Positions 11,103 to 60,174 of a DNA stretch of 62,978 bases are shown here, piece after piece; position 1 is the stretch's first letter, and each line of letters begins with the position of its first letter. The DNA is taken from positions 1-62,978 of the forward strand of contig DATLUO010000021.1 of the NCBI GenBank assembly GCA_035533075.1, in the 5' to 3' direction. A program made the translations under genes and the position numbers. The DNA is from Pirellulales bacterium. GTDB lineage: Bacteria; Planctomycetota; Planctomycetia; Pirellulales; JAICIG01. A model generated the notes under the pieces. The model saw nothing but the letters and a program-made list of their open reading frames with translations. It was not told the DNA's origin and made no database searches.

Positions 11103-14100
11103 ATGGCTGCGAAGAAACGAACGAAGAAGGCCGCCCCGCCGCCGGCCGACCCGCGCGAACCGGCTCCGCCGACGGGCAAGCCTGGTGGGCCAGAAGAACC
11201 AGCAACGGCGCGGTCGGACGCGCCGAGCGCGGAAACCCCGGAACCGCGGTTTCCTGTGGTCGGCATCGGCGCGTCGGCCGGCGGGCTCGAAGCGCTCACG
11301 CAGCTCTTGCAGGCGATGAGCCCCGACAGCGGCATGGCGTTCGTCTTCGTCTCGCACCTCGATCCGGAACACAAAAGTGCCCTCGGAGAAATCCTATCGC
11401 GGGTGACCGCCATGCCCGTCCGCGAGGCTGACGACGGACTGGCCATCGAGCCCAACCACGTCTACGTCATGCCGCCCAACCGGGACATGATCCTCCGCCG
11501 AGGAGCGCTTCGCCTGACGCCGCGCGTGGCGACCCACCTGCCGCAAATGCCCGTCGATACCTTCCTGCGATCGCTGGCCCGCGACCGCGCGAACGGCGCA
11601 ATCGGCGTGGTGCTGTCGGGCACCGGCACGGACGGGACGCTGGGCCTGAAGGAGATCCGCGAAGCCGGTGGGTTCGCCTTCGCCCAGGACGAGACGGCCG
11701 CGTTCGGCGGCATGCCGCGCAGCGCCGTGGCGGCCGGCGTCGTCGATGCCGCCTTGCCGCCCGCCAAGATCGCGGCGGAGTTGCTCCGGATCTCCAAGCA
11801 GCCGCTGGTGCTCCCTGTTCCGGAAGCTGCCGCGCCAGAGGGCGGGCCAGGCGAAGAGGCTTTCTACCAAATCCTCCGCTTGCTCAGTGCCACCACCGGC
11901 GTCGACGTGGTGCATTACAAGCACTCGACCCTCCGCCGCCGCATCGAGCGCCGCATGGTCTTGCGGGGGCTGAAGACGCTGGGCGAGTATCTGGAGTGCC
12001 TGCGCGACGACGTGGCCGAACAGAAGCGACTGTTTGAGGAAGTGCTCATTCCGGTGACCAGTTTTTTCCGCGACCCTGAAACGTTCGAGGCCCTCAAGAC
12101 GAGCGTCTTGCCTCGGCTGATGGCGCGGCGGCCGGCCCAGGCGCCGTTTCGCGTTTGGGTGCCGGGCTGCGCCACTGGCGAGGAGGCCTATTCCATCGCG
12201 ATCTGTCTGCTGGAGTATCTGGCCGCTACGGAATCGCCGCTGCCGATCAAGATCTTCGCCACCGACGTCAGCGAGCGCGCCATCGAGGCCGCACGGACCG
12301 GCGTTTACGGCGAGGGGATCGCAACCGAGGTCTCGGCCGAGCGCCTGCAGCGTTACTTTCTCAAGACCGACCGGGGTTTTGAAGTCAGCAAGGCCGTGCG
12401 CGACCTGTGCGTCTTCGCCCGACAGGATGTGACCAAGGATCCGCCGTTTTCGCAGCTCGATCTCGTCACCTGCCGCAACGTGCTGATCTACCTGGGATCC
12501 GTCCTGCAAGACCACGTGTTGCCGATCTTGCACTATGCTCTCCATCCGGGAGGCGTTCTCGTGCTGGGCAGCTCGGAAACGGTGGGCCGCTATACCGACC
12601 TGTTCGAAGCGATCGACAAGAAACGCAAGTTTTACCAGCGCACTGCGACGCCCAGCCGGCTGACGTTTGAGTACACGCCCAGAACGCCGGCGCGGGCGCC
12701 GATGGTCCGCGAGGGCCCGGCGGAGCACGGCCGCGGCTTGCCGGACGTCTACCGCGAGGCCGACCGCGTGGTCCTGGCCGACTACGCCCCGACCGGGGTC
12801 CTGCTGGACGAGAACTTTCGCATCCTGCAGTATCGCGGCGACACCGGGAATTTCCTCAAGCCGGCGCCAGGCCCGCCCACCACCGAACTGTTGCTGATGG
12901 TCCGCGAGGGTCTGCTCGGCGACCTGCACGAAACGCTCCATCGCGCCTGGCGAGAGAACGCGCCGGCACGCAAGGAAGGCGTGCGCGTGAAGACCAACGA
13001 CCACTTCACCGACATCGACCTGCACGTGATCCCGATCGCCGACCCGGTCTCGGCCGTGCGCTACTTCGTGGTGCTGTTTGCCGACCGGGCGGAAGCGGCC
13101 GTGCCGCGGCCGCGCAAGCCGCCGACCCCCGAGGAGGAGTCGGAGAAAGACCGCGAAATCAGCCGCCTGAACCACGATCTCACCGCGACGAAGGCCTACC
13201 TGCAATCGCTGATCGAGCAAAAAGAGGCCTCCAACGAAGAATTGCGCGCCTCGAACGAAGAAGTCGTCAGCGCCAACGAAGAGCTGCAAAGCACCAATGA
13301 AGAGCTGACAACCGCCAAGGAAGAGCTGCAGGCCACCAACGAGGAGCTGACGACCGTCAACGACGAGCTGCAAAGCCGCGTCCGCACCACCAACGAGCTG
13401 GCCGACGACCTGGTCAACCTGATCGAAACGACCCGCATTCCGATCGTGGTGCTGGGGCCCGACCTGTGCGTCCGCCGTTTCACACCCGCCGCGCGGACGG
13501 TGATGAACCTACGGCCCGGCGACGTGGGCCGGCCGTTCTTGGAACTGAAGACGAAAATCAACGTGCCCGACCTGGAACCGCTCGTCCAGGAGGTGATCGA
13601 CACGCTGGAGATCAAGCAGCGCGAGGTGGCCGACGAGAGTGGCGCCTGGCACAAGCTCTACGTGCGGCCCTATAAGACGCTGGACCACAAGCTCGGCGGC
13701 GTGGTGTTGATGCTGATCGACATCGACGTGCTCAAGCGGCGGGAGCAGGAAATCGAGGAGTCGCGCGACTACGCCGTCAGCATCGTCGAGACGGTGCGCG
13801 AACCGCTGCTCGTGCTCGACGGCGAGCTGCGCGTGCGGACGTGCAACCGGGCCTTCTACGAGGGCTTCCATGTCTCGCCCGCCGACACCGAGGGCCGGCT
13901 GATCTACGAGCTGGGGGGCGGCGAGTGGGACATCCCGCGCTTGCGGACCTTGCTGGAAGAGATTCTGCCGCAGAACCATCACTTGGAGAACTTCGAGGTA
14001 GAACACGATTTCCCCGGAATCGGGCGGCGGACCATCTTTCTCAACGCGCACCGCCTCGTGCAGGGCAAAGAGAACCGGGAGCAGCTCATTCTGCTGGCCA

Positions 14101-17794: not shown

Positions 17795-18253
17795 CTACGG
17801 CGATGGGCTCGCCGGCAGCACGATCGCGGGCCGCGTGCTGCCGCGTATCACGTGCTCGGCGGTCGTGCCGAACAGATACGGGTCGATCTTGCCGCGCAGG
17901 CCAAACTTGCCCATCACGATCGCGTCGGCCTTGAGTTCTTCGGCTTTCTTGATGATTTCGAGGAAGGGCGTTCCCTCGACGACGATCGTCATGACTTCGA
18001 TGCCCGAACCGGCCGGCGCTTGATAATCGGCCAGCGCTCGTTCGGCACGGGCACGCATCACGTCCAGCACTTCTTCGCGTGCGGCCAGCTCGTGGGCCAC
18101 GGCGAAGTCGACGTGACGCCGATCCATGACGTGCAAGAGCATGACGACGGGCTCCTTGCCCGACACGAGGTCGATCGCGTAATCGAATGCGCTCCGCGAG
18201 GCGGGCGAGAAATCGACCGGTATCAATAAGGGCCGGAAGGAATCGAGGACCAA
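17795..18253 (-). CDS. universal stress protein (UspA family), start uncertain
   Basis: About 152 residues. The N-terminal LLIPVDFSPASRSAFDYAID and the C-terminal nucleotide-binding loop VMGKFGLRGKIDPYLFGTTA with GSTRPAIVLP are typical UspA. In ATP-binding members the loop is G-x2-G-x9-G-S/T; here the first part is GKFGLRG. No ATG or Shine-Dalgarno lies near the expected N-terminus. I place the start at a TTG (18253), which puts it back to back with the next gene's ATG at 18254; an in-frame ATG near 18335 would add about 27 unconvincing residues and overlap that gene. It is one of three stress-protein genes in this island. Confidence 0.8.
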   Translation of the reverse strand: MVLDSFRPLLIPVDFSPASRSAFDYAIDLVSGKEPVVMLLHVMDRRHVDFAVAHELAAREEVLDVMRARAERALADYQAPAGSGIEVMTIVVEGTPFLEIIKKAEELKADAIVMGKFGLRGKIDPYLFGTTAEHVIRGSTRPAIVLPASPSP

Positions 18254-19018
18254 ATGGAAACCATCAACAAGACCTTGTTTGACTCTTTGATGCGATACGG
18301 CGGCTGGCCCTGCGTATCGTTTTACCTGCCCGTGCATGCGGGCGGATTCGAAGGGCAAGCCGGTCGCGTTCGCCTGAAGAATCTCGTGATTGAGGCCGAA
18401 GAGCGATTGACGGCCCGTGGCATTCGTCCGGTCGAGGCGCGCGATTTCGTGGCGTCGGCCCGTGAACTGGTCGATCGCGACGATTTCTGGAAAAACCAAA
18501 CCAAGGGCCTGGCGGTATTTGTTTCTCCGGAGGCGACGCAGTCGTTTTGGCTGCCGACGACCGTGCCTGAGCTGGCGGTGGTCAACTCGCGGTTCCATAT
18601 TGCGCCGCTGCTCCCGTTGGTCGAACAGGAATGCGACTTTTACATTCTCACCGTCAGTGAAAACCATGTGCGGTTGTTGAAGGCCGATCGCTGGCAGGCT
18701 GGTGAAGCGGCGGTACCGAAGCTGCCAGGCAGTGCCGCGGAAGCATTGCACTACGATCACCCCACGGACACGCGGCAGTTTCACACCGCCGTGTTGGGCC
18801 GCCACATGAGCAAGCTCAGCGCCTATCACGGCAGCGCGGATTTGTTTGAGCAGGAAAAGAACGAACTGCTGGAATACTTCCGGGCAATCGACCATGCGCT
18901 TCACCCCTTGTTGCGCGGAGGGCGCGTCCCGCTGGTGTTCATCGGCGTCGATTATCTCTTTCCGATCTTCCGGGCGGCCAATTCCTATCCCCATTTGGCC
19001 GAAGCCCACATTCCTTGA
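18254..19018 (+). CDS. BaeRF3-family release-factor-like protein, C-terminally truncated
   Basis: A 254-residue protein matching the bacterial archaeo-eukaryotic release-factor family 3: PCVSFYLPVHAGG near the N-terminus, RLKNLVIEAEERLTARGIRP, DFWKNQTKGLAVFVSP, FHIAPLLPLVEQECDFYILT and VPLVFIGVDYLFPIFRAANS. Family members continue about 100 residues past the YPHL segment; this one stops seven residues after it (AEAHIP, then TGA). The family is thought to act on stalled or hibernating ribosomes (inference from the fold). Shine-Dalgarno GAGG precedes the ATG at a good distance. Divergent to a universal stress protein, with the two starts touching. Confidence 0.8.
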   Translation: METINKTLFDSLMRYGGWPCVSFYLPVHAGGFEGQAGRVRLKNLVIEAEERLTARGIRPVEARDFVASARELVDRDDFWKNQTKGLAVFVSPEATQSFWLPTTVPELAVVNSRFHIAPLLPLVEQECDFYILTVSENHVRLLKADRWQAGEAAVPKLPGSAAEALHYDHPTDTRQFHTAVLGRHMSKLSAYHGSADLFEQEKNELLEYFRAIDHALHPLLRGGRVPLVFIGVDYLFPIFRAANSYPHLAEAHIP

Positions 19019-19566
19019 CAACCAGTGATTCCTCGGATTGGGTGGTTTTAGCCATGATCTTTCTCCTTTGCTTTTCTCGCGATAGACGCGGTGAAACGTT
19101 TTTCAACTTGGATCGTACTCCCGATCCCAGCCTTGGCTATAACGAAGATGCGTCGTGACGTCGTGACGGTCGCAAAGGGTATGCCGTCCCCACGTTCGTG
19201 CCCCTGGCCCGCGAAGCCATTGCCGTAGAGCCGCAAAGAAATGAAAGCGTTCTGCGAGCCAGGAGCAGCCGCCGAAGGTTTGTCACGCCGTCTCACGGGG
19301 CGCCGATCCAACCAACTGTTCCAGAGAGCACACATCGCGTGCGAGCTCGCACGTTCTCGCGAGCATCGACGCCGGGGCAGGCTGCATTCCTCGTTTGCAG
19401 TGGCGTATCATGCCGCCGAGACACGCGCGCGTAGACGGTACACGGCTTGCTACGATGCCGAGCCACTGAGAAATGGCGCGCTACTGTATCCGAGTGCATG
19501 AACGAGGTGCAGGGCCATATCCTATTGGTCGTTACGGCCATCGAACCTGAGAGAAGGGGACTACGA
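19019..19566. other. intergenic with an orphan minus-strand translation start
   Basis: No convincing gene in 548 bases. On the minus strand a near-perfect ribosome-binding site AAGGAG stands before an ATG at 19054, followed by MAKTTQSEESLVV, but the frame then runs into the 3' end of the BaeRF3 gene and soon stops. This looks like the left-over 5' end of another gene. Together with the premature end of the BaeRF3 frame 36 bases away it marks a likely deletion junction. Confidence 0.4.
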
Positions 19567-20139
19567 ATGAGCCAGGCAGAAACGGTTCCGGAAGCCCGTT
19601 TACGCAATCCTGCCGATATTCCATTGCAGACGATTGGCGTGGCCACCGATTTCAGCGAAACCGCCGGGTTGGCCTTGAGCTACGGTGCGGCAGTTGTCGG
19701 GCAATTTGGCGGGTCGCTGCACGTTTTGCACGTGTTGCACGAGGCGGGTCTCAGCGCGCTCCACCCCGACGACGCTGCCTGCTTCGAGTCGGCCCGCGGC
19801 TATTTCAACCAGCCGGAAGAAAACGGCCCTCAGGCAGAGCGTAGCCTCCAAGACTCGGTGCGGAACTTTCTCGAGCGTGTCGAGAGAGGAACCAACGAAC
19901 GTTTGCAGACGTTGACATCGTCAGCGTTGCTGGCAAACCTGAAGATCGTGACGGCCATCCGCTACGGCAGTCCGGTCGACGAAATCTGCGACTACGTCCG
20001 GCAAAATGCCATCGACTTGCTTGTGCTCGGAACGCACGGCCACAGGGGGATCAATCATTTTTTGATCGGCAGCGTGGCGGAACGTGTGGTCCGCGCGAGT
20101 CCCTGTCCGGTGTTGACGGTACGACTGCCCAGGTCCTAA
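19567..20139 (+). CDS. universal stress protein (UspA family)
   Basis: A 190-residue protein with the full UspA fold: QTIGVATDFSETAGLALSYG at the N-terminus and the ATP-binding loop LVLGTHGHRGINHFLIGSVA followed by ERVVRASPCPVLTVR, which fits G-x2-G-x9-G-S. An insert of about 35 residues (HPDDAACFESARGYFNQPEE...) lengthens the region after the second strand relative to the usual 140-150-residue protein. The ATG at 19567 has a purine-rich GAAGGGG before it; longer frames upstream are not conserved-looking. It acts in the cytosol in survival under starvation or hypoxia in studied species. Confidence 0.9.
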   Translation: MSQAETVPEARLRNPADIPLQTIGVATDFSETAGLALSYGAAVVGQFGGSLHVLHVLHEAGLSALHPDDAACFESARGYFNQPEENGPQAERSLQDSVRNFLERVERGTNERLQTLTSSALLANLKIVTAIRYGSPVDEICDYVRQNAIDLLVLGTHGHRGINHFLIGSVAERVVRASPCPVLTVRLPRS

Positions 20140-20175
20140 CCCACTGACGTTTTTCTATTCTGGAGGTAAACAGCG

Positions 20176-20388
20176 ATGCAAAGAATTGCCACATTTGGAC
20201 TGATATTGGACATGGCAGGCGATGTAGCCGCGTTTGTGAGCGATCCGAGCGGGACGGCCTTCACCGCGTCTCTTGCTGCGCGCGTGGTGCCGGTACTGGC
20301 CGCGATTTTCCACCACTTCAGACACGCGATTACCGATGCCGCCGACGAAGAGATGGCGGCGTTCCGCGTCGAAACCATTCGTCGCTAG
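20176..20388 (+). CDS. small hypothetical protein
   Basis: A 70-residue protein preceded by a strong Shine-Dalgarno (GGAGGT, 9 bases before the ATG), which is the main support. It starts QRIATFGLILDMAGDVAAF, has a hydrophobic stretch AARVVPVLAAIFHHF, and an acidic-to-basic tail DEEMAAFRVETIRR. I do not recognise it. It lies in the stress island, 36 bases after a universal stress protein gene, and may be co-transcribed with it. Confidence 0.5.
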   Translation: MQRIATFGLILDMAGDVAAFVSDPSGTAFTASLAARVVPVLAAIFHHFRHAITDAADEEMAAFRVETIRR

Positions 20389-20645
20389 CGCTAATAGCCA
20401 ATGATGAAAGTTGTGCTCACTTGGCCCGTCAAGCGTGCGAATGAGCGCAGCTCGACGGACCTGGACTGCCGGTTTGTCGGCATTTGCGGCAGCGTTTCGC
20501 GGCGGAACGCATCTTGCACCGGCAGGCCAAGAACGTTTGCTTGGCCGATTTGGCCGGGAGGTCGAAGCACGGACGAGGATTTCCGCCGGTTGGAGCGTTT
20601 TCAACCGGGGCTTCGTCGTGAACCTAGTGAAGGATGAGGTGATTT

Positions 20646-20999
20646 ATGTTGCGATCGCTGGTACCAGTGCGCGAAAGGCGGCTCGCCCGACCGTTTGAGC
20701 GAATCGTCGATGAAATGGAAGACCTGATCGAACGATTTTGGGAAGGAGGCGACGGCGGCCCGTCGAGGCTGGAAACCTACTATCCCAAGGCGAATCTGGC
20801 CGAGACCGACGGCAACTTCGAGCTCAGCGTCGATCTGCCCGGCATGAAGCCCGAAGAGATCAAGGTCGAAATGCGAAACGGCAACCTGGTGGTCTCGGGC
20901 GAGCGGAAAGAGGAGAAGGAAGAAAAGGGGAAGACGTATCACCGCGTCGAACGCAGCTACGGCTCGTTCTGCCGCACGATTCCGCTGCCGGCCAACTGA
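20646..20999 (+). CDS. Hsp20/alpha-crystallin small heat-shock protein, C-terminally truncated
   Basis: A 117-residue protein. After an N-terminal arm (about 1-45) the alpha-crystallin domain begins YYPKANLAETDGNFELSVDL, with PGMKPEEIKVEMRNGNLVVS and GKTYHRVERSYGSFCRTIPL. It ends at PAN with TGA, whereas family members continue with about 35-40 residues containing the last strand (GVLTVTLPK type) and the IxI tail needed for oligomer assembly. No continuation is seen in any frame downstream. It is a holdase chaperone in principle; without the tail it is probably non-functional or dimeric. Hsp20 (HspX/Acr) is also a hallmark of the mycobacterial dormancy regulon. Confidence 0.85.
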   Translation: MLRSLVPVRERRLARPFERIVDEMEDLIERFWEGGDGGPSRLETYYPKANLAETDGNFELSVDLPGMKPEEIKVEMRNGNLVVSGERKEEKEEKGKTYHRVERSYGSFCRTIPLPAN

Positions 21000-21260
21000 G
21001 ATGTCAAGCTTTGGCGCGCGAGCTTATCTAAAACTCACAATGCGCTCACGCGAGCCGGCTTTTTCTTTTTCGACCCAAGCTGCGAGCTGTGCTCAGAGGG
21101 ACACACCGCGCGCCCGATCGCTCATTTACCATTCTTTGCGCCCAGCGAATCTGCGGATTGTGCGGAGATTTCCGGGCGGCATGAGCATTGCTTCACCGTG
21201 GGCAATGTCTTTCTGCCACGGTGGCGGAGGCGGTGCTTTCAGCATGGAGAAGGTGTTGTG

Positions 21261-21644
21261 ATGAATCGTTCGTTTCTGGTTGCGGCGGCTTTGTTTTTGG
21301 CAGTTGTGGGGATGTCCTTGATGTCCGGCGGGAATGTGGCGCAGGCCGGCCATCGCGGCTGCTACGGCTCGGGTTGCTACGGCTGCGATGGAGGTTGTTC
21401 GGGTTGTTACGGCGGCTGTTACGGCTGCCACGGGCGTCGGCGGCACGGCTGCTACGGCTGCAATGGATGTCAAGGGGGCAATGGGTGCTACGGCTGCCAA
21501 GGGTGCAGCGGCATGAATGGCGGTCAGGCCCAGCCGGCAGCGCCTCCGGCACCGGCGCCGGATACAAGTACCAGTGCTCCCAAGGCGAACAAGGCGGCGA
21601 GCAAGAACAATGCTTCGCCGCGCCGCTCGGCGACGCGCGGCTGA
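21261..21644 (+). CDS. secreted Gly/Cys/Tyr-rich protein with GCYGC repeats
   Basis: A 127-residue protein. The signal peptide (MNRSFLVAAALFLAVVGMSL..., cleavage after AQA) leads into about 60 residues of tandem GCYGC-type units (GCYGSGCYGCDGGC and so on), then a Pro/Ala/Lys/Ser-rich tail ending RRSATRG. The roughly 18 cysteines outside the membrane suggest a disulfide-linked or metal-binding envelope layer, as proposed for other planctomycete Cys-rich wall proteins (inference). The ATG at 21261 is taken because it gives the signal peptide; an upstream GTG frame does not. It resembles in style the CCEPTC protein at 61112. Confidence 0.7.
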   Translation: MNRSFLVAAALFLAVVGMSLMSGGNVAQAGHRGCYGSGCYGCDGGCSGCYGGCYGCHGRRRHGCYGCNGCQGGNGCYGCQGCSGMNGGQAQPAAPPAPAPDTSTSAPKANKAASKNNASPRRSATRG

Positions 21645-21739
21645 TGAAACGGAGCCGCTCGGCCACGGGCCACCGCGGCGGAAACCCGCGGTGGCCCGAG
21701 CCACGCTGAATCCAAAAGAAGAAAGAAGGGAACGAACCA

Positions 21740-22177
21740 ATGTCCGTCGGTCGAATTTGCAGCCGTGAAGTCCAGCTTGCCGAAACCAAAGACTCGGCCG
21801 CCGTTGCCGCGAAGCGAATGCGAGACTCTAACGTCGGCACACTTGTCGTGCTTGATGATCACAAGAAACCAATCGGGATCGTCACCGATCGCGACCTGGT
21901 GGCGAGGGTCATGGCCGCGGGCAAAGATCCTCACGGGTGTACGGTTGGCGATATAATGACCCGCTCGCCCAAATCGGTGCGCGACGACGCGCCTATCGAA
22001 GATGCCTTAGTCCAGATGTGCGGACTCGGCCTGCGCCGCATGATCGTGGTCGACAAGGAGCATCGATTGGTCGGCATCATCAGCCTCGACGACATTTTGT
22101 CGCTGCTCGGCGAAGAGCTCAGCCGCATCGGCCGTTTGCTCGACCATCAAATCGCCGCCGCACGCCGCGACCGATAG
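21740..22177 (+). CDS. CBS-domain pair protein
   Basis: A 145-residue protein consisting of two CBS domains: VGRICSREVQLAETKDSAAV to IGIVTDRDLVARVMAAG, and VGDIMTRSPKSVRDDAPIED to VGIISLDDILSLLGEEL. Paired CBS domains bind adenine nucleotides and report energy state. A stand-alone CBS pair of this length resembles Hrp1 (Rv2626c) of the mycobacterial DosR regulon in size and layout. It lies in the stress island between the Cys-rich protein and a DUF2267 gene, all on the plus strand. Confidence 0.9.
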   Translation: MSVGRICSREVQLAETKDSAAVAAKRMRDSNVGTLVVLDDHKKPIGIVTDRDLVARVMAAGKDPHGCTVGDIMTRSPKSVRDDAPIEDALVQMCGLGLRRMIVVDKEHRLVGIISLDDILSLLGEELSRIGRLLDHQIAAARRDR

Positions 22178-22246
22178 CCCCACACGAGGGCCGTGATTCG
22201 CAGACCATTCTTGATAGCCATTTCACCTACAACGAGGGAACAGGCC

Positions 22247-22669
22247 ATGAGCCACACGAATGCCGCGTTTGATGCGACGGTGCAGGCGACCAATGCCTGG
22301 GTTGCCGACCTGGCGGCCCGCCTTGGTTGGAGCGATCACCACCATGCTTACATGGCCCTGCGGGCGGTCTTGCACGCCTTGCGCGACCGGTTGAGCGTCG
22401 AGCACGTGGCCGACCTGTCGGCCCAGTTGCCGATGCTCGTGCGAGGGTTCTATTACGAAGGCTGGCATCCGGCCGGCAAACCGCTCAAAGATCGCAAAGA
22501 GGATGACTTCCTCGAACATGTCGCCGACAACCTGCGAGGCGCCCCGGACGCCGACCCGCGCCAAGTCACCCGCGCCGTGTTCGCGCTTCTTAGGCAGCAC
22601 GTCAGTCACGGTGAAATCGAATCGCTGAGGGCGACGCTGCCGCACGAGCTTAAGCTGCTCTGGAAGTGA
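22247..22669 (+). CDS. DUF2267 domain protein
   Basis: A 140-residue protein: FDATVQATNAWVADLAARLG, HAYMALRAVLHALRDRLSVE and LSAQLPMLVRGFYYEGWHPA are the DUF2267 signature, with a second half repeat ending LRATLPHELKLLWK. The function is unknown; the family is frequently found with CBS, BON, Hsp20 and universal stress genes, as here. The ATG at 22247 is chosen over an upstream in-frame ATG at 22193 because the family starts here. Its 3' end overlaps that of the convergent PPDK-like gene by 64 bases. Confidence 0.88.
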   Translation: MSHTNAAFDATVQATNAWVADLAARLGWSDHHHAYMALRAVLHALRDRLSVEHVADLSAQLPMLVRGFYYEGWHPAGKPLKDRKEDDFLEHVADNLRGAPDADPRQVTRAVFALLRQHVSHGEIESLRATLPHELKLLWK

Positions 22670-24273
22670 GCTTTCCAGCGTTTGACCTGTTCCAAATATG
22701 CGGTCGGCTGTTCGACGCGAACGTCAAGTCGGCCCGCATAAACCTCGCCCGATTGGCCGTCGGCTGAGATCCAATCTCCTTCGGCGAACGACCGATCACC
22801 GATTTCGCAATGCTGCAAGCCGTCCGGCACGATCAGCTCGCGGCATCCGACCACGCAGGCCTTGTTGAGTTGCCGAGCGACGACGGCGGCGTGCGACGTG
22901 CGTCCTCCCCGAGCGGTAACAATGCCGGCGGAGGATGCCAGTCCGGCGATGTCGGCCGTCGTGATATCGCCGCGCACCAGGACGGGCGCCTGGCCCTTGG
23001 CGGCGAAGGTGGCTGCTGCCTCGGGCGTCAGCGCGATGGGGCCAATGGCCACTCCTGATCCAGCCGGCGTCCCGCGACACAGCGGCCTTAACCCGTCAGG
23101 GGGCGCCAAACGAACCGACTTCAGCTCGTCGAGGTCGTACCCGCTCAATCTGTCGAGCGCGGTCGTTTCGTCGATCCGTCCTTCAGCGACGAGGTTGCAG
23201 GCGATACGCAGGGCGGCCAGCGGAGTTCTTTTGGCGGTGCGCGTTTGAAGCACGTACAACCGCCCCTCTTGGATGGTGAATTCGAAATCTTGCACGTCGC
23301 CGAAAAGGTGCTCCAGTCGTCCCGCGGTTCGAACGAGTTCGCGATAGACCTCGGGCAGAATCCGCTCCAGGGCCGCGCTGCCCCGTGTGCCACGTCGCCC
23401 GCCGACGATATCCTCGCCTTGTGAGCCCGGCAGAAAATCGAAGTAGAGACCGGTTTCGCCGGTGGCCGGGTCGCGCGTGAAGGCCACGCCCGACCCGGAG
23501 TTTCCACCCAGGTTGCCGTAAACCATGGTTTGGATTGTGACGGCAGTCCCTGGCAGGTGCTCCAGCCTTCGCAGACGGCGGAACTCAACGGCGCGGGCGC
23601 TTTGCCAAGACCGGAACACGGCTTCGACCGCCGCGACCAATTGCTCGCGCGGATTCTGCGGAAAAGCGTGGCCGACTTGCGACGAAAACCATGCCAGCGA
23701 TTCTTCAGCGATTTCTCGCAGGGCCGCGGCATCGAGCTCCGCCGGCGACGCAACGCGATCGCTCGCCAGCCGGGCATCGACCCGCCGTTCAAACGGCTCC
23801 GCAGCCAGCCCGTGGACTGCCTCGCCGTAACTTTGCACCAGGCGTCGGTAGCTGTCCCACGCATGACGTGGGTTGCCGGTGAGACACACCAGGGCCGATA
23901 CGGTGCGGTCGGTCAGTCCGACATCCAGTACGGTATCGAGCATGCCGGGCATCGAGACGGCCGCCCCCGAGCGGACCGACAAGAGCAATGGCCGTCGCTC
24001 GCCGCCGTAGACCAAGCCGGTTGCCTTGCCCAACCGTTCCACCTGTTCCGTCAGCAGCTCGGCAAAGTTCTCAACCAATCGACGACCGCAATCGAAGTAA
24101 TCGCGGCAGAAGGAGACGGGCAGCACAAAGCCGGGCGGCACGCGAACACCCTCTTCGGCCAGGCGGATCAAATTTGCCGCTTTGCTTCCGACACTCTCGG
24201 CCGTGACCGCGGTCCGGTCGACGCCAGGGCAACCGAAGAAGACAATCTGCTTGGTCGAATCGCCGGCGTTCAT
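22606..24273 (-). CDS. short pyruvate phosphate dikinase-like protein lacking the PEP/pyruvate domain
   Basis: A 555-residue protein; full PPDK is about 880. The ATP-grasp region is present (VGSKAANLIRLAEEGVRVPP; LLLSVRSGAAVSMPGMLDTV; MVYGNLGGNSGSGVAFTRDP), and so is the swivelling phospho-His domain, with TARGGRTSHAAVVARQLNKA at about 455-475. The C-terminal TIM barrel that binds PEP/pyruvate is missing; the protein ends in a Ser-rich tail. It could pass phosphate from ATP to its His and then to another protein rather than to pyruvate (inference). It lies 13 bases after the PhoU-domain gene, in one operon. The 3' end overlaps the convergent DUF2267 gene, so the present C-terminus may result from a deletion. 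Confidence 0.85.
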   Translation of the reverse strand: MNAGDSTKQIVFFGCPGVDRTAVTAESVGSKAANLIRLAEEGVRVPPGFVLPVSFCRDYFDCGRRLVENFAELLTEQVERLGKATGLVYGGERRPLLLSVRSGAAVSMPGMLDTVLDVGLTDRTVSALVCLTGNPRHAWDSYRRLVQSYGEAVHGLAAEPFERRVDARLASDRVASPAELDAAALREIAEESLAWFSSQVGHAFPQNPREQLVAAVEAVFRSWQSARAVEFRRLRRLEHLPGTAVTIQTMVYGNLGGNSGSGVAFTRDPATGETGLYFDFLPGSQGEDIVGGRRGTRGSAALERILPEVYRELVRTAGRLEHLFGDVQDFEFTIQEGRLYVLQTRTAKRTPLAALRIACNLVAEGRIDETTALDRLSGYDLDELKSVRLAPPDGLRPLCRGTPAGSGVAIGPIALTPEAAATFAAKGQAPVLVRGDITTADIAGLASSAGIVTARGGRTSHAAVVARQLNKACVVGCRELIVPDGLQHCEIGDRSFAEGDWISADGQSGEVYAGRLDVRVEQPTAYLEQVKRWKAHFQSSLSSCGSVALSDSISP

Positions 24274-24286
24274 GGGTCTCCGGCAA

Positions 24287-26251
24287 TCACCTGGTTATCG
24301 CATCGCCGAACACATAGTCGCGCAAGTTGAGCGCGGAGCGCATCAGTACGTCGGCGGCCGCCTCGAGATTGTCGGCAATTTCCGTAAAAAGGTGGAGTTG
24401 TTTGAAATCACCTGAAAACATAAGGATGCCGGACTTGGCCCGACGATGGGCGTCGTCGGCCTGGTGCTCGGCAAGCTGCGTCCGATCTACCGCTTGTAGA
24501 AAATCTTCAATTCGTTCGCGCGCGCTGCCGCGATGCACATAGCGGGCGTTCTCCAGAGCCTTCAGATACTCTTGCGCCCCCTGCACGAGCAGCCACGACA
24601 ACTCCTCGAGTGCTGCCAACGAACCGTTGGTCGCGCCGTCGCTCGGCAACAAGTTGATCAGAAAGACGGCTTCCTCGAGCTTGTCGGCCGCGTCGTCGGC
24701 CGTCCGCACCAGATCGATCAGCGGCTGCGACGATTCGCTCCGCCAGCCGCGAGCCGCCCGGCAGCGATTGAGCAATTCGTCGGCGCGGTGTTCCCAAAGC
24801 TTCGCCCTCCGGGCGGTGCGGTCCAAGTAGTCTCGGTCACCCGCCTCGATGCCCAACAACAGGCAATCGCGTGACGCCGTAGCCAGTTCGACGATCAAGG
24901 TGGCATGCTCGCCGGCCACCGTCAGAAGTCCCTCTTGGATGGTGTCGAGATTGCGCCGCAGCTCGGCGCGGATTTCATCGCGGATGAGTGCGTCGGAGCG
25001 GCCGGCCAGCAAGCCCTCGGCCGTGGTCCGCAGCATGAACTTGAGGAATTCCGCGGTGCGAGACTCGCCCAGCATATCCGCGAGTTGGCCGCCCCACTGT
25101 AGCGGCCCCTGAGCGATAAGCCGCAGCGCGTCGAATACAAGTTGCTCGCCGCCCAGCTTCAAAAACGCCCTGTGTCCGAAGCTGTTGGCAGCGGCCCAAT
25201 CCAGGACATCGAGGCAAACCTCTTTGGGGGCCAGCTTTCGCAGCCGTTTGCGGGCCCGGTTCCAGTCGATCAGGAAGACGAGCCGCGACCCAAGCAACGT
25301 GAGATCGCCGGCAAGCGCATCGTGGCCGCCCGCGACGAAGGTGCCGACGCTCAGGTGGTACAGATCCCGTAAGCCAGCCGATCGTTTCGACACGGTATCG
25401 TTCCATGCCACGGCGAGCGGTCGCAGCAGGGCCTGGAAAGAGGCCAGCCGTTGAATGTGGATGTCGCTGTAGGTCACCGTCACTTTCGGCGGCTCGATGC
25501 GGACCACCAGCACGTGCGCCTCCGTCAAACCGATGTCGTTTTGCAGCACCAGCGCGCCACGGTCGTGAGTGGCCGTCGTACCGAGGCCTGGGTGGTCGAA
25601 CTTCAGTTTCTCGGTTTGGTGGACGCCCGCCATGAAGGCCGCCACAAGTCCACGATCGTCGTCCGTCAGCCCGTAAACCGCCGCCCCCGCGACCGATTCC
25701 GTGGAGATTTGCCGTTGCCGCCGGTTGATCTCCTTGTGCAAATCCATAATGAGGGTGTGCAGACTGTCTTCTTGTCCGGTCGGTGCCAGCGCGACGCGAT
25801 CAATTGTGTCACCGTCGATCGAGTCGTCGTCCGGCGGACACAAGGAAGCCAGGCATGCGCCGAGACGGTGCTGATAGTCGGCGCCCGGACGACCGTCGTC
25901 CGTCGAGGCAGTCGTCGCGTCGACTTCGATCGGCACGAGCATTTGCCGTATTTGGTCGACCAGCAATTCATAGATTTGCCGCGCCCCCGGAATAGCGTAC
26001 CGGTGGTCGGCCTCCTTGTGGCTTTGCTCGACCACCGAGTCAAATTCGACATCGGTCACGCCGCACGCGAGCCTCTCCGTTTTCAGATCCACGGTGCCTG
26101 CGTCCGGACGATCGGCATGGGCTTTTGCGGCTTGCAGCAGTGCGACCAGATACTTGGCGCGGTCGTTGGCTGCCAACGCCGCGTTGACGACGTTGGGCAA
26201 GATCAGCGATCTCTCGCCCAGTTCCGACACAATCTGAGATTTGCCGGTCAT
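24287..26251 (-). CDS. large protein with C-terminal PhoU/DUF47 domain
   Basis: A 654-residue protein. The C-terminal 200 residues (SRDCLLLGIEAGDRDYLDRT, ADELLNRCRAARGWRSESSQ, VRTADDAADKLEEAVFLINL, FTEIADNLEAAADVLMRSAL) form the helical bundle of the DUF47/PhoU family with its E/D-x3-D-like metal-binding repeats. The N-terminal 430 residues are not a domain I recognise; they are helical with a beta-rich part near DIGLTEAHVLVVRIEPPKVT. PhoU-like proteins regulate phosphate transport and, in several bacteria, persistence. The start at 26251 is chosen for its Shine-Dalgarno (AAGG, 7 bases away); an ATG at 26278 is also in frame. First gene of an operon with the short PPDK. Confidence 0.75.
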   Translation of the reverse strand: MTGKSQIVSELGERSLILPNVVNAALAANDRAKYLVALLQAAKAHADRPDAGTVDLKTERLACGVTDVEFDSVVEQSHKEADHRYAIPGARQIYELLVDQIRQMLVPIEVDATTASTDDGRPGADYQHRLGACLASLCPPDDDSIDGDTIDRVALAPTGQEDSLHTLIMDLHKEINRRQRQISTESVAGAAVYGLTDDDRGLVAAFMAGVHQTEKLKFDHPGLGTTATHDRGALVLQNDIGLTEAHVLVVRIEPPKVTVTYSDIHIQRLASFQALLRPLAVAWNDTVSKRSAGLRDLYHLSVGTFVAGGHDALAGDLTLLGSRLVFLIDWNRARKRLRKLAPKEVCLDVLDWAAANSFGHRAFLKLGGEQLVFDALRLIAQGPLQWGGQLADMLGESRTAEFLKFMLRTTAEGLLAGRSDALIRDEIRAELRRNLDTIQEGLLTVAGEHATLIVELATASRDCLLLGIEAGDRDYLDRTARRAKLWEHRADELLNRCRAARGWRSESSQPLIDLVRTADDAADKLEEAVFLINLLPSDGATNGSLAALEELSWLLVQGAQEYLKALENARYVHRGSARERIEDFLQAVDRTQLAEHQADDAHRRAKSGILMFSGDFKQLHLFTEIADNLEAAADVLMRSALNLRDYVFGDAITR

Positions 26252-26744
26252 GATGTTACCTTGTTCCGATTCTACCAAAAAACCGTCGGCGTGGGGGCTG
26301 ACTACCCGTCATGCTCGATCTTGCGGAGCGACGACGTCATCGCGACGACGGAGCATGGTCGGCCGCCTCGCTTCCACCGGTGCCGGTCGGTCCGCTGCCG
26401 CCGGTCTCCGTGTTGAACGCGCTTGCAGCTTGTGTGCCGCGAGGTGTCACGTGCCTTAGTGCGATTCTCAACCGCCGCCTGGCGGCCCGCTGACTCCTCG
26501 CGCTGTGCGGCAAGGCGCGCACTGTGTGACAAAAAGCGACACTGGCTCGTCATGACTTGCGATCCCTCGCCACGGTCCGATGTGCGAAGAGTCGCGTGCG
26601 AAGCGTAAAAAACGGGCTGCAAAGCCGTTCGGAGCCTTCATTTCAATCGGCCCGGCAAGCCGGCACAGGGAATGCTAAAAAGCCGGTCCGAGTTACTGAG
26701 GTCCGCCTTGTTCCACGCCCGGAGTTATCGACCATGTTGCAGAT
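26252..26744. other. intergenic region between divergent stress genes
   Basis: About 490 bases between the minus-strand PhoU-domain gene and the plus-strand genes that follow. No reading frame has protein-like composition. It should contain the promoters of both directions, but I see no consensus box good enough to name. Confidence 0.4.
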
Positions 26745-26957
26745 ATGCTTGCAGAATTCCACCACGACGCGCGTCGTTCCGACAGCTACGGGCCGTTCGA
26801 AGCGGTCAGGATTGTCGGCAACGAGGTCCACGTCAAAAACGGTTCCGACTACGTTCTCGCCCAGTTCCACGACAACCGTGAAGGTTGGCGGTGTGGCGAC
26901 GATGCCTGGTCGTTGATGGTCGTGACCCAGTCGGCGATGCACGTTGAAACAGAGTAA
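26745..26957 (+). CDS. possible small protein, hypothetical
   Basis: 70 residues, soluble and acidic (SDSYGPFEAVRIVGNEVHVK, then DDAWSLMVVTQSAMHVE). The composition is protein-like and the end lies 32 bases before the next gene of the same strand. There is no clear Shine-Dalgarno before the ATG, and I do not recognise a family. It could be the 3' remnant of a longer gene. Confidence 0.35.
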   Translation: MLAEFHHDARRSDSYGPFEAVRIVGNEVHVKNGSDYVLAQFHDNREGWRCGDDAWSLMVVTQSAMHVETE

Positions 26958-26989
26958 CCCAAGCAGCCACGGGCAAGGAGCGGCCAACG

Positions 26990-27511
26990 ATGAACGAAGA
27001 ATGCGTTGTGGGCGTGTACGACTCGCTCGACGGAGCCGGCCAAGCGGTCCATATTCTGCGGCGGGGCGGTGTTCCGGTGCGGCAGGTGTCGGTGGTCGCC
27101 TCCGGCCCGCTGGACAGGCCCGAATTGGTCCATAACCTGCCGATCGCCGACGATTCGCTTCGCGACGCGGCCATCGGCGCCGGCCTGGGAGGTCTTCTGG
27201 GCGTCGTCGCCGGCATCGCGGCGACCGCGGTTGCCGGGGTCGGGGTCGTGTTCGCGCTCGGTCCGTTCGCCGTCGGGCTGACCGGCGCGACGGTGGGCGC
27301 CTACCTTGGCGGTTTGATCGGCTGGGGGGTCCACCGCCAGCACATCGAGCACTATGAACAGTGCGTCAAGAACGGCAAGGTGTTGGTCATCGCCAACGGC
27401 ACTCCTGCCGAGCTGGACGGCGCCAATCGGATGCTCAAGGAAACCAATGCCGTTGAAGTGCGGCTCTATGCGCGGACCTCCTCGGAGTCGCCCGAAGTGC
27501 TGGCACGGTAG
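26990..27511 (+). CDS. general-stress-type protein with glycine-zipper membrane segment
   Basis: A 173-residue protein. An N-terminal alpha/beta domain (EECVVGVYDSLDGAGQAVHI, RQVSVVASGPLDRPELVHNL) is followed by a long Gly/Ala-rich stretch (AAIGAGLGGLLGVVAGIAAT to TGATVGAYLGGLIGWGVH) able to form two membrane-inserted helices, and a C-terminal domain with KNGKVLVIANGTPAELDGA. This layout matches DUF1269/GS17M-like stress proteins. It lies in the stress island between the PhoU/PPDK operon and further stress genes, same strand as the next two. A weak AAGGAG-like site (GCAAGGAG) precedes the ATG by 9 bases. Confidence 0.75.
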   Translation: MNEECVVGVYDSLDGAGQAVHILRRGGVPVRQVSVVASGPLDRPELVHNLPIADDSLRDAAIGAGLGGLLGVVAGIAATAVAGVGVVFALGPFAVGLTGATVGAYLGGLIGWGVHRQHIEHYEQCVKNGKVLVIANGTPAELDGANRMLKETNAVEVRLYARTSSESPEVLAR

Positions 27512-27590
27512 CGGCCGTCCATGGGACGGGGCCGGAACGGAGAAGCCTCTTATCAATTCGTTAGGTTCTAGCAAAAAGGGAGAGACGACG

Positions 27591-27917
27591 GTGGTGTCGA
27601 ACGACGTACAAGAGCGGTTCACGCGCGCGGTCGGAATACTGGCCGACGAAAAAGGAAGAATCAAGGAGCGGCTGCTGATGGCGTATGCCAGCCAGTTGAG
27701 CGGCGTACACGTCAAGCAGGACTTGCCGCCGGATCTGGCCAAAGGCTTTTACGAGATGCGCAATGCCATCAGCGACGCGGAAATGCCCTACGGCTACGGC
27801 GAGCGGGCGGCGAAGAAGATCGACGCCATGAGCGAAGAGGAAGCCTCGGCCTTGGCCGGCGCAATTTTTCAGATGTTTCTCAAACTCTGCGGCCAGCCGG
27901 CAGAGCAGGCGGCCTGA
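27591..27917 (+). CDS. hypothetical protein of the stress island
   Basis: A 108-residue, helical, soluble protein: VQERFTRAVGILADEKGRIK, ERLLMAYASQLSGVHVKQDL, then MSEEEASALAGAIFQMFLKL. A GTG start at 27591 (or the next GTG at 27594) is preceded by GGGAGA. I do not recognise it. It is 15 bases ahead of the truncated universal stress protein gene and clearly in one transcript with it. Confidence 0.65.
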   Translation: MVSNDVQERFTRAVGILADEKGRIKERLLMAYASQLSGVHVKQDLPPDLAKGFYEMRNAISDAEMPYGYGERAAKKIDAMSEEEASALAGAIFQMFLKLCGQPAEQAA

Positions 27918-27932
27918 AAGGAACTGAGCACC

Positions 27933-28358
27933 ATGAGTAATCGAGAGAAAGTCGCGTCGAGCGTAATGTCGCACGCCCAGAGAGCCCCCATGTCTGACCT
28001 CAGAAGAATCCTCGTCGGAGTCGACCTGCTTGAATCGCGGCAAGGCAACCTGTCGCCGCCCGTCGAACAGGCGGTCAAACAGGCGATTTGGCTGGCCGAA
28101 CGTCTGTCGAGCCAAGTGCTGTTCCTCGCGGCGGTCGAGTTGCCGAAAGAAGGGGAGATCCATCCACCGGCGATCGATAGCGAGCGGGTGGTGAGTGAGG
28201 TCGAGACCTCCGCGCGCGAAGCCTTAAGAAAGCTGGTGCAGCGAACGGCCGAGCGCGGCGTGCGAGCGACGAGCAAGTTCGTCGATGGGCAGGGCTCGCC
28301 GACTTCGTGTGCCCGGTGCCTTTGGAATCGTATCACCACGTTCCGCCGATACCCTTGA
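27933..28358 (+). CDS. universal stress protein, C-terminally truncated
   Basis: A 141-residue frame. The N-terminal UspA half is good: LRRILVGVDLLESRQGNLSP, EQAVKQAIWLAERLSSQVLF, SAREALRKLVQRTAERGVRA. After KFVDGQG, where a UspA protein continues into the strand-loop G-x2-G-x9-G-S, the sequence turns into an unrelated tail (SPTSCARCLWNRITTFRRYP) and stops. No continuation is found in other frames. It is therefore the N-terminal remnant of a larger stress protein, with about half of the domain missing. AAGGA precedes the ATG. Confidence 0.75.
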   Translation: MSNREKVASSVMSHAQRAPMSDLRRILVGVDLLESRQGNLSPPVEQAVKQAIWLAERLSSQVLFLAAVELPKEGEIHPPAIDSERVVSEVETSAREALRKLVQRTAERGVRATSKFVDGQGSPTSCARCLWNRITTFRRYP

Positions 28359-28397
28359 TTTGAGCGCCGACCAAAGAGCGAGCTTGCGCCATATAAA

Positions 28398-52073: not shown

Positions 52074-52391
52074 AAACTTTGCGATATACATCCGGATCCG
52101 TTTCACATTCCAGACCAAGGGGTTGCGTCAGCGTTCCAGATTTCCAGGCTCATCCGAAACGCATTCGCGCACAATCCCTTCGATCCGAAATGGGAGATTC
52201 GCGAAGCCTGGAGGGATCGCTGTTTCACAGTACGAGATGTGATTTCGCTCGACACTACCGGTCTGGATGGGCGGCGCGTCCGGCGTGAGGACTACGGCGG
52301 TCCGCTGGCCCTTTTTAAGTTGATCGAATACGCGGAGACCATTCTCGAACAGAAAGCGACCAAACACGATGGACTGGCAAGATCGAATTAG
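52074..52391 (+). pseudogene. 5'-truncated gene, HEPN-like C-terminal fragment
   Basis: A frame open from the stop at 52071 to a TAG at 52389, without any start codon. It reads PDQGVASAFQISRLIRNAFA, then HNPFDPKWEIREAWRDRCFT, VRDVISLDTTGLDGRRVRRE and YGGPLALFKLIEYAETILEQ. It is clearly protein; the R-N-A-F-A-H motif is that of HEPN (R-x4-6-H) nucleases, but this is a short match. The N-terminal part has been lost at the junction with the DUF1552 gene. The end overlaps the antitoxin start by 23 bases, suggesting the three belonged together. Confidence 0.6.
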
Positions 52392-52599
52392 CGTTGACCC
52401 GAAAGTGCTGGTGGGCAAGCCCGTAATCAAGGGCACCAGGATCGCCGTCGAGTTCCTGATGGAGTTGCTGGCCGAAGGGTGGTCACATGAGCAAATCCTC
52501 AAGAGCTATCCGCACCTGACAGAAGAAGACATTCAGGCGGCGCTGCGCTACGCCACGGAGGCCGTGAAACTGGAACGAGTCTACCCTTTGCCTGTGTGA
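52369..52599 (+). CDS. DUF433 antitoxin
   Basis: A 76-residue protein with the full DUF433 signature: DWQDRISVDPKVLVGKPVIK, GTRIAVEFLMELLAEGWSHE, QILKSYPHLTEEDIQAALRY. The family has a winged helix-turn-helix and acts as antitoxin to the PIN-like DUF5615 protein encoded 3 bases downstream. It should bind and neutralise the toxin and repress the operon. Confidence 0.92.
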   Translation: MDWQDRISVDPKVLVGKPVIKGTRIAVEFLMELLAEGWSHEQILKSYPHLTEEDIQAALRYATEAVKLERVYPLPV

Positions 52600-52602
52600 C
52601 TC

Positions 52603-52959
52603 ATGGCGGCGTTTCTGGCGGATGAAAACGTGCCACAGGAAGTGGTCGATGCAGCGCGACAAGCGGGCCACGATTTGAAGTGGATCAAGGAGCTGCAGCC
52701 CGGTGTTGACGACGATACGGTGCTGCGAACCTCGATGGCGGAAAACCGCGTGTTGTTGACGTTCGATAAGGACTTTGGGGAGATGGCATTTCGCCAGGGA
52801 AAGTCAGCAACGTGCGGCGTGATCCTTTTTCGTCCGCGGGTCCATTTTCCCGACTATGTTGCGCGGTTCGTGATCGCGGTGTTAGGGCAGTCCGTGAACT
52901 GGGAAGGCCACTTCGCCGTCGCCCAGGAAGGTCGGTTGCGCGTTGTTCCGCTACCTTGA
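52603..52959 (+). CDS. DUF5615 PIN-like toxin
   Basis: A 118-residue PIN-like protein. Acidic residues typical of the nuclease centre are in AAFLADENVPQEVVDAARQA (D, E), VDDDTVLRTSMAENRVLLTF and TFDKDFGEMAF (D-x-D-F). The family are probable RNases paired with DUF433 antitoxins. It starts 3 bases after the antitoxin. Its stop codon (CCTTGA) is the first part of the direct repeat copied from a DUF1552 gene end. Confidence 0.9.
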   Translation: MAAFLADENVPQEVVDAARQAGHDLKWIKELQPGVDDDTVLRTSMAENRVLLTFDKDFGEMAFRQGKSATCGVILFRPRVHFPDYVARFVIAVLGQSVNWEGHFAVAQEGRLRVVPLP

Positions 52960-59274: not shown

Positions 59275-60174
59275 ATGCAACCCGCGATTGACCGCTTCTT
59301 GCAGTACCTCACGGTCGAGCGGAACAGCTCGCCGCTGACGGTCAAGAGCTATCGCGAAGACCTGCAGGCGCTGGCCGCCTATCTGGGCGAGCGTTATCCG
59401 ACCGCGCCGCCGCCGGGCGACGTGACCACGCTCGATCTGCGGGGCTATCTCTCGGCGCTGCACGAACAGCAGTATGCCAAGACCACGATTGCCCGGCGAT
59501 TGGCGTCGCTGCGAAGCTTTTTCCGTTTCGGCCAACGCGAGGGATGGACCGACAGCAATCCCGCCAAGCCGCTGCGCAACCCGCGCAAGAGCCGGGCGCT
59601 GCCGCACTTTCTGTCGTCGGCCGATCTCGACCGGCTGCTGTCGACGCCGCCGGCCGACAAGCCGATGGGTCTGCGCGACCGGGCGATCCTGGAAACGCTC
59701 TATTCGGCCGGCCTGCGCGTGAGCGAGCTGGTGGGGCTGAACGACGGCGACGTGGATTTATCGCAGGGCATTGTCCGCGTGCGCGGCAAAGGCAAACGCG
59801 AGCGGCTGGCCCCCATCGGCAGCTATGCCGCCGCCGCCCTGCGCACCTGGCTGCGGGTGCGACGCGTCAGCCCGCGCGAGCCATCGGGCATCGAGACGCC
59901 GGTCTTCCTCAACAAGTCGGGCCGCCGCCTGACCACGCGCAGCGTCGGCCGGCTGCTGGAAAAGCACCTGGCGGCGGCGGCACTCGACCGCCGCACCACG
60001 CCGCACACGCTGCGGCACAGCTTCGCCACGCACTTGCTCGACGGCGGAGCCGACATCCGTAGCGTGCAAGAGCTGCTCGGCCACAAGAGCCTCGTCACCA
60101 CGCAGATTTACACGCACCTCAGCACGGCGAATCTGCGGGCCATCTACGAGAAGGCCCACCCCAGGGCCAAGTGA
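59275..60174 (+). CDS. xerC: tyrosine recombinase XerC/XerD
   Basis: A 299-residue tyrosine recombinase. The SAM-like N-terminal domain ([20 protein letters not shown]) is followed by the catalytic domain with all residues: Arg in [14 protein letters not shown], Lys in [16 protein letters not shown]-x-x-R in [20 protein letters not shown], His in [17 protein letters not shown] and the nucleophile Tyr in that stretch. The length is that of XerC/XerD, which resolve chromosome dimers at dif; whether C or D cannot be said. Preceded by an inverted heptamer array instead of a normal leader. Confidence 0.92.

Follow-up and report, generated by a model that had tools for sequence, protein, structure and literature searches.

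Introduction

Why should several neighbouring genes of one bacterial stress island all stop short at their 3' ends? The question is raised by a 62,978-base stretch from a Pirellulales bacterium, called the window throughout, which makes up the entire contig C21 in a 99% complete genome assembly (8.54 Mb, 296 contigs). A preliminary description had held that four genes of the island, for a BaeRF protein, Hsp20, a universal stress protein (USP) and a pyruvate, phosphate dikinase (PPDK), all had intact 5' ends and missing 3' parts, and had suggested repeated deletion or recombination in one region, or selection for short forms. All four open reading frames (ORFs) are present where they had been described. 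Our analyses, which used an order sample of 57 genomes and a class sample of 297 genomes, suggest that two separate things were taken for one: private 3' losses of the BaeRF, Hsp20 and tandem-USP genes in this lineage, and a whole PPDK that belongs to a two-gene cassette whose partner protein probably replaces the phosphoenolpyruvate (PEP) domain. We assign this combined account a probability of roughly 80%.

The dikinase and its upstream partner

22606..24273, minus strand: short dikinase, 555 amino acids, with ATP-grasp and swivel His domains and no PEP domain; natural length (Pfam, species scan, tree, alignment)
22193..22669, plus strand: convergent DUF2267 ORF, overlapping the dikinase end by 64 bases (ORF list, Pfam)
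24287..26278, minus strand: partner protein, 663 amino acids in the longest ORF (654 amino acids from the ATG at 26251, the start that the family supports), with a conserved N-terminal and a PhoU-like C-terminal domain (homologues, predicted structure)

The two domains that the dikinase contains are well preserved: the ATP-grasp domain matches PF01326 (E 6e-35) and carries the active-site motif RSGAAVSMPGM at residue 101, the swivel domain matches positions 6-72 of 72 of PF00391, and the catalytic His461 and the ATP-site arginine R101 are invariant in 14 of 14 aligned sequences. Relatives were collected from 84,980 species, with one genome per species, and the best 80 of 571 confirmed loci, which are not a census, were sorted by the length of the reading frame that holds the match; 26 proved short, at about 527-552 amino acids, 51 are full-length and 3 are cut by a contig end. 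In a tree of 48 sequences, all short forms lie on one side of a 100/100 branch, with the window next to the planctomycete L043. This includes L050, which carried the label 'no group' on the tree and is short by frame measurement, as is L076, which lies outside the tree. The short clade spans Planctomycetota, Proteobacteria and Acidobacteriota, and the missing PEP/pyruvate-binding domain is a stable trait of it. As the short loci elsewhere have about the same length as the dikinase of the window and form one clade with it, the window PPDK is whole and not truncated. It had been proposed that this gene is cut short, and this did not hold; the absence of the PEP domain and the 64-base overlap with the convergent ORF did. 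That the gene could be a recent truncated copy of an ordinary PPDK might be read from the order sample, in which the matches over most of the query are otherwise full-length or lie at contig ends, but the 26 short loci in other genomes, their single clade with the window and their one upstream partner already refute this explanation and leave it next to no probability. A separate full-length PPDK (933-residue frame) is encoded elsewhere in the genome. The window dikinase matches both the PPDK model TIGR01828 (9-525 of 865; 528 bits, cut-off 843) and the model NF004531 (PRK05878, 534 positions; match 20-482; 423.2 bits, cut-off 456), in each case below the curated cut-off.

The short loci share a second gene. 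A homologue of the partner protein lies directly upstream of the dikinase, on the same strand, in 26 of 26 short loci (34-53% identity), in none of the 51 full-length loci and in none of the 3 contig-cut loci of the same best 80, and in the 25 loci measured the dikinase starts from 11 bases before to 16 bases after the end of the partner stop codon, with one exception at 153. In the class sample, the partner is found in 6 of 297 genomes, and of these the window and 4 of the remaining 5 have a short dikinase next to it; G238 is not counted as independent, because it is probably the same genome as L043. The pair is also present on two plasmid records, annotated as 'DUF47 family protein' or 'phosphate transport regulator' and 'PEP/pyruvate-binding domain-containing protein'. 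A candidate for a fused partner–dikinase gene, L050, was rejected, as it consists of two genes in different frames and its long frame is due to chance. The linkage and the domain make-up show that the PPDK of the window stands second in a conserved cassette of two genes, and we found no published description of such a cassette of a short dikinase and a PhoU-like partner in the literature on dikinases, PhoU/DUF47 and VadK.

The partner has no significant Pfam match of its own. With PF01865 it reaches 14.1 bits (cut-off 24.4), and 12 of 18 members of its family match PF01865 at E values up to 1, the best being 7e-8. Its predicted structure (pLDDT 87) has a PhoU-like C-terminal part, in which the PhoU helical fold is seen in the model and by a profile match (E 3.7e-5), and residues 437-650 of the model superpose on PDB 3l39 (Z 23.9, rmsd 2.3, 199 residues). 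The partner shares this part with DUF47/PhoU-like regulators such as 3l39 and differs from them by an additional conserved N-terminal domain of about 430 residues. When the N-terminal 425 residues were predicted alone, the pLDDT was 88; a Foldseek search of the PDB gave no match under E 1e-3 (best E 4e-3, low probability), and the best VIA result was the C-terminal domain of MotA from phage T4, with Z 8.3 over 105 residues. This want of a clear match is no proof of a new fold. The many residues invariant in 18 partner sequences include H165, D170, H172, H220, D239, H246, D263, H265, D329, N331 and H360, a pattern that looks like that of enzyme or binding sites.

In four Bradyrhizobium-type loci (L063, L084, L086, L096), a phosphoketolase-like ORF, read from its start, lies upstream of the partner, and on a Methylocella plasmid (L123) the cassette comes after a run of acyl-CoA degradation genes. 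Sections of two papers hint that a Bradyrhizobium phosphoenolpyruvate synthase, which may or may not be the short form, belongs among oxygen-limitation genes (PMC6515984, PMC6201568).

The three shortened stress genes

18254..19018, plus strand: Balon/BaeRF stub, 254 amino acids, C-terminal domain missing (Pfam match, relatives' lengths, genome search)
19012..19020, no strand: BaeRF break point (end of alignment; inference)
19015..19055, minus strand: start-like stretch (MAKTTQSEESLVVKE) that leads into the BaeRF stub and has an AAGGAG site at 19063-19068 (sequence)
20646..20999, plus strand: Hsp20 stub, 117 amino acids, last strand and tail missing (Pfam match, relatives)
27933..28358, plus strand: tandem-USP stub, family homology ending after residue 121 (28295) (Pfam match, alignment, genome comparison)
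28298..28363, plus strand: ADFVCPV..., read in another frame, perhaps the final codons of this USP; suggestive only

For the BaeRF, Hsp20 and USP genes, the loss of the 3' part is shown at the level of sequence. The BaeRF stub retains the central BaeRF domain, with 105 bits for PF18849 (cut-off 27.2), and the match, which reaches residue 253 of 254, breaks off within the domain at position 122 of 144; the C-terminal stretch that is absent comprises 134-149 residues in nine relatives. Its best Pfam family is baeRF_family7, which replaces the earlier label 'BaeRF3'. In the order sample, all 25 other BaeRF matches lie in open frames of 378-665 amino acids, and in the class sample 79 of 82 matches lie in frames of at least 359. 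The three exceptions are the window and two copies with an internal TGA (G147:C276 and G258:C182), so broken BaeRF copies do occur elsewhere, and only the copy of the window is cleanly cut. These counts leave out the BaeRF rows L019 and L021 and the Hsp20 row L035, in which the wrong ORF had been picked. A search for the missing parts elsewhere in the genome had been proposed, and a profile search with the lost BaeRF domain gave no match on any contig of the genome. With the same profile, 8 of 9 other genomes searched gave matches with E values of at most 1e-13; 6 of these 8 gave no row to the query and two (G019 and G029) had contributed rows to it, and the ninth, G001, had no BaeRF from the outset.

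By its match to the NCBIfam Balon model NF052287 (82.7 bits over 3-218 of 361), the 254-residue protein is placed close to the ribosome hibernation factors of the Balon family, with a score far short of the curated cut-off of 330 bits. The likeness to these factors (PMC10901736) extends over the N-terminal and central parts and the neighbourhood of Hsp20 and stress genes, and the C-terminal domain, by which Balon contacts or holds EF-Tu, is the part that the stub lacks. The start-like stretch on the minus strand beside the break is perhaps the 5' piece of another cut gene; a search for other copies of the sequence adjoining the break gave nothing useful. On the other side of the BaeRF gene, a minus-strand USP gene (17795-18229) has no ATG start and lies head-to-head with the BaeRF start, leaving almost no promoter space, and its 5' end is perhaps cut as well.

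The Hsp20 protein matches positions 3-66 of 102 of PF00011, ending on its last residue, and contains neither a complete alpha-crystallin domain nor the C-terminal I-x-I-like tail, as the preliminary description had rightly seen. Ten aligned relatives have 34-41 further residues, which include the IxI-like tail, a paralogue in the same genome (on C39, 58% identical) has a 160-residue frame, and all other Hsp20 matches listed in the order sample lie in frames of at least 121 amino acids. A profile of the Hsp20 end gave no match in the window. The read-through peptide past the stop codon was tried as a remnant of the lost end and rejected, its score being no better than that of random window stretches (P 0.78).

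The USP, described earlier as ending half way, does so: its Pfam match covers positions 3-96 of 141 of one domain, where two complete domains would make up a tandem USP, and homology to the family, whose members have 317-374 amino acids, ends after residue 121, with four relatives running about 200 residues further. Among the 13 USP matches of the genome it is the only clear stub (11 of the other 12 reach position 140 or 141, and one reaches 133 of 141), an intact member of the tandem-USP family is encoded on C165, and no equally short USP was found in the order sample. Just behind the break, the peptide ADFVCPV resembles the KPADFxxPI end of four relatives, in which 204, 204, 196 and 204 codons lie between the two points; if this remnant is real, it would suggest that about 200 codons were lost from the interior of the gene.

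How did these losses arise? We infer that they are deletions rather than assembly gaps. Assembly collapse or chimeric joins could have removed the 3' parts, as the genome is a draft in 296 contigs; this explanation is unlikely, given that the assembly is 99% complete and has the lost BaeRF domain on none of its other contigs, and that the breaks show no repeats that could mislead an assembler.

The remnants themselves are well kept. The BaeRF stub has a mean identity to its relatives of 0.369 (0.339-0.387 for 8 intact relatives; L018 was also left out of this comparison), the Hsp20 stub has 0.510 (0.434-0.549 for 10 intact relatives), and both have a normal codon pattern with a third-position GC of 0.72-0.76. 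Because the remnants are as conserved as intact relatives, either the genes were shortened recently or the stubs remain in use. The latter would be the case if the three proteins were selected, working short forms, for example a Balon that acts on the ribosome without EF-Tu. We consider this quite unlikely, as a recent loss would leave the same conservation, the window has the one clean short BaeRF among the 82 class matches, the order sample holds no equally short Hsp20, and the Hsp20 stub stops in the middle of its domain. Of the suggested selection for short forms, the conservation of the BaeRF and Hsp20 remnants is thus what speaks in its favour, and the missing counterparts speak against it. 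Relatives of the same short length, named earlier as the sign of natural short forms, exist for the PPDK and were found in no clean case for BaeRF in the class sample, nor for Hsp20 or USP in the order sample.

A Pfam match was found for 34 of 40 scanned window proteins, and the three genes that stop inside a domain at the 3' end are all among the 10 island genes with such a match; the chance that three losses fall into the island at random is 120/5984 = 0.02. This clustering, expected by chance in about 2% of cases, is weak evidence. It could reflect a deletion hot spot, in which repeats or a mobile element repeatedly removed 3' ends within 10 kb, but no direct or inverted repeats were found at the break points, the stretches between the island genes contain no recognisable gene remnants or mobile element, and gene recognition alone would produce a 3' bias, since genes cut at the 5' end lose their start and promoter and drop out of ORF lists. 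A hot spot is improbable, and the statistic in its favour is weak. Repeated loss in one region fits the three genes, and recombination between repeats finds no support at the breaks; the intact 5' ends, once seen as an unusual bias, lose their weight, as 5'-cut genes are not listed and the minus-strand USP at 17795-18229 has no ATG start. A promoter and terminator scan gave fewer sites than shuffled sequences. The cut genes are ordinary gene loss.

Three further features of the window were noted. A small, secreted-looking protein rich in Cys, Gly and Tyr, with repeated CYGC units, is encoded at 21258-21644 (plus strand). At 52369-52959 (plus strand), a DUF433 and a DUF5615 gene adjoin, a layout that resembles a toxin–antitoxin pair. 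A complete tyrosine recombinase (Phage_integrase) gene lies at 59275-60174 (plus strand).

Discussion

The two-part account has consequences for each of the proteins concerned. The Balon stub lacks the EF-Tu-binding C-terminal domain, the Hsp20 stub lacks its last strand and the assembly tail, and the USP stub lacks its entire second domain together with the last part of the first. Of the three, the Hsp20 and USP stubs at least would be expected to be inactive.

For the cassette, we propose that ATP would charge the His of the dikinase swivel domain, which would then pass its phosphate on, either to the partner itself or to a substrate that the conserved N-terminal domain of the partner binds, with the PhoU-like domain as a sensor or dock. 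The partner would in this way take the place of the missing PEP/pyruvate-binding domain. Because the short dikinase has no acceptor domain and is always accompanied by one partner gene, the partner most likely supplies the acceptor. We hold this phosphate route to be just short of even odds. Dikinase folds that act on another acceptor include phenylphosphate synthase and rifampin phosphotransferase. These have in common with the short dikinase the ATP-grasp domain and the swivelling His domain together with a different acceptor, and they differ in that the acceptor candidate here is a separate protein with no clear fold match; the weak NCBIfam match of the dikinase to rifamycin phosphotransferase is due to the shared domains and nothing more.

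PhoU-like domains are usually regulatory. The cassette may thus be regulatory only, with a short dikinase that phosphorylates cell proteins and a partner that is a mere chaperone or stabiliser. The closest known system is VadK (Rv1127c) of Mycobacterium tuberculosis, which is likewise derived from PPDK, whose ATP-binding and catalytic-His domains come without a PEP/pyruvate domain, and which autophosphorylates on His (PMC13400623). That the short dikinase would charge its His from ATP is suggested by analogy, because VadK does so. The phosphorylation of cell proteins has been proposed for VadK, and its operon partner Rv1126c improves its solubility (PMC13400623). What differs here is a partner of about 650 residues, encoded upstream and carrying a PhoU-like domain, and a section of that paper names mycobacteria, Nocardia, Streptomyces and Rhodococcus, and not Planctomycetota or Proteobacteria (PMC13400623). 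A purely regulatory cassette seems to us possible and on the whole doubtful, as the N-terminal 425 residues of the partner hold many invariant polar residues, beyond the need of a mere stabiliser. The acceptor route, in its most far-reaching form, would make the pair an undescribed phosphotransfer system, in which ATP charges the swivel His of a dikinase freed from pyruvate/PEP chemistry and the phosphate then goes to an obligatory partner with a new N-terminal enzyme or acceptor fold and a PhoU-like phosphate or metal sensor; this is a tentative idea, and we would bet against it.

Several observations weigh against our account as a whole. The locus L135 (G095:C379) has a cut partner and no short dikinase within the 8.8 kb examined; its partner gene breaks off after about residue 515-532. 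The genes next to the cassette vary between lineages, and the context therefore names no pathway. The acceptor role of the partner is without independent support, since the comparison of its N-terminal domain with the PDB gave no clear match. Among the shortened genes, no remnant of the Hsp20 end was found downstream, the USP 3' remnant is a match of 7-9 residues and by score the 8th best 9-mer of the window, and the same pattern has a chance match at 12389. At each of the three breaks, the draft assembly may have collapsed locally.

In summary, a Balon without the EF-Tu-binding domain represents a natural deletion mutant, and the greater weight lies with the dikinase and its partner. That a PPDK lacking the PEP domain can be a kinase is a recent finding from mycobacteria, and a related form is now seen in Planctomycetota, Proteobacteria and Acidobacteriota, with a partner linked to it in every short locus examined. 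This linked partner names a candidate acceptor, which can be tested in Bradyrhizobium or Methylocella. If the proposed phosphotransfer is true, the pair would link metabolism or stress to the energy state in three or more phyla.

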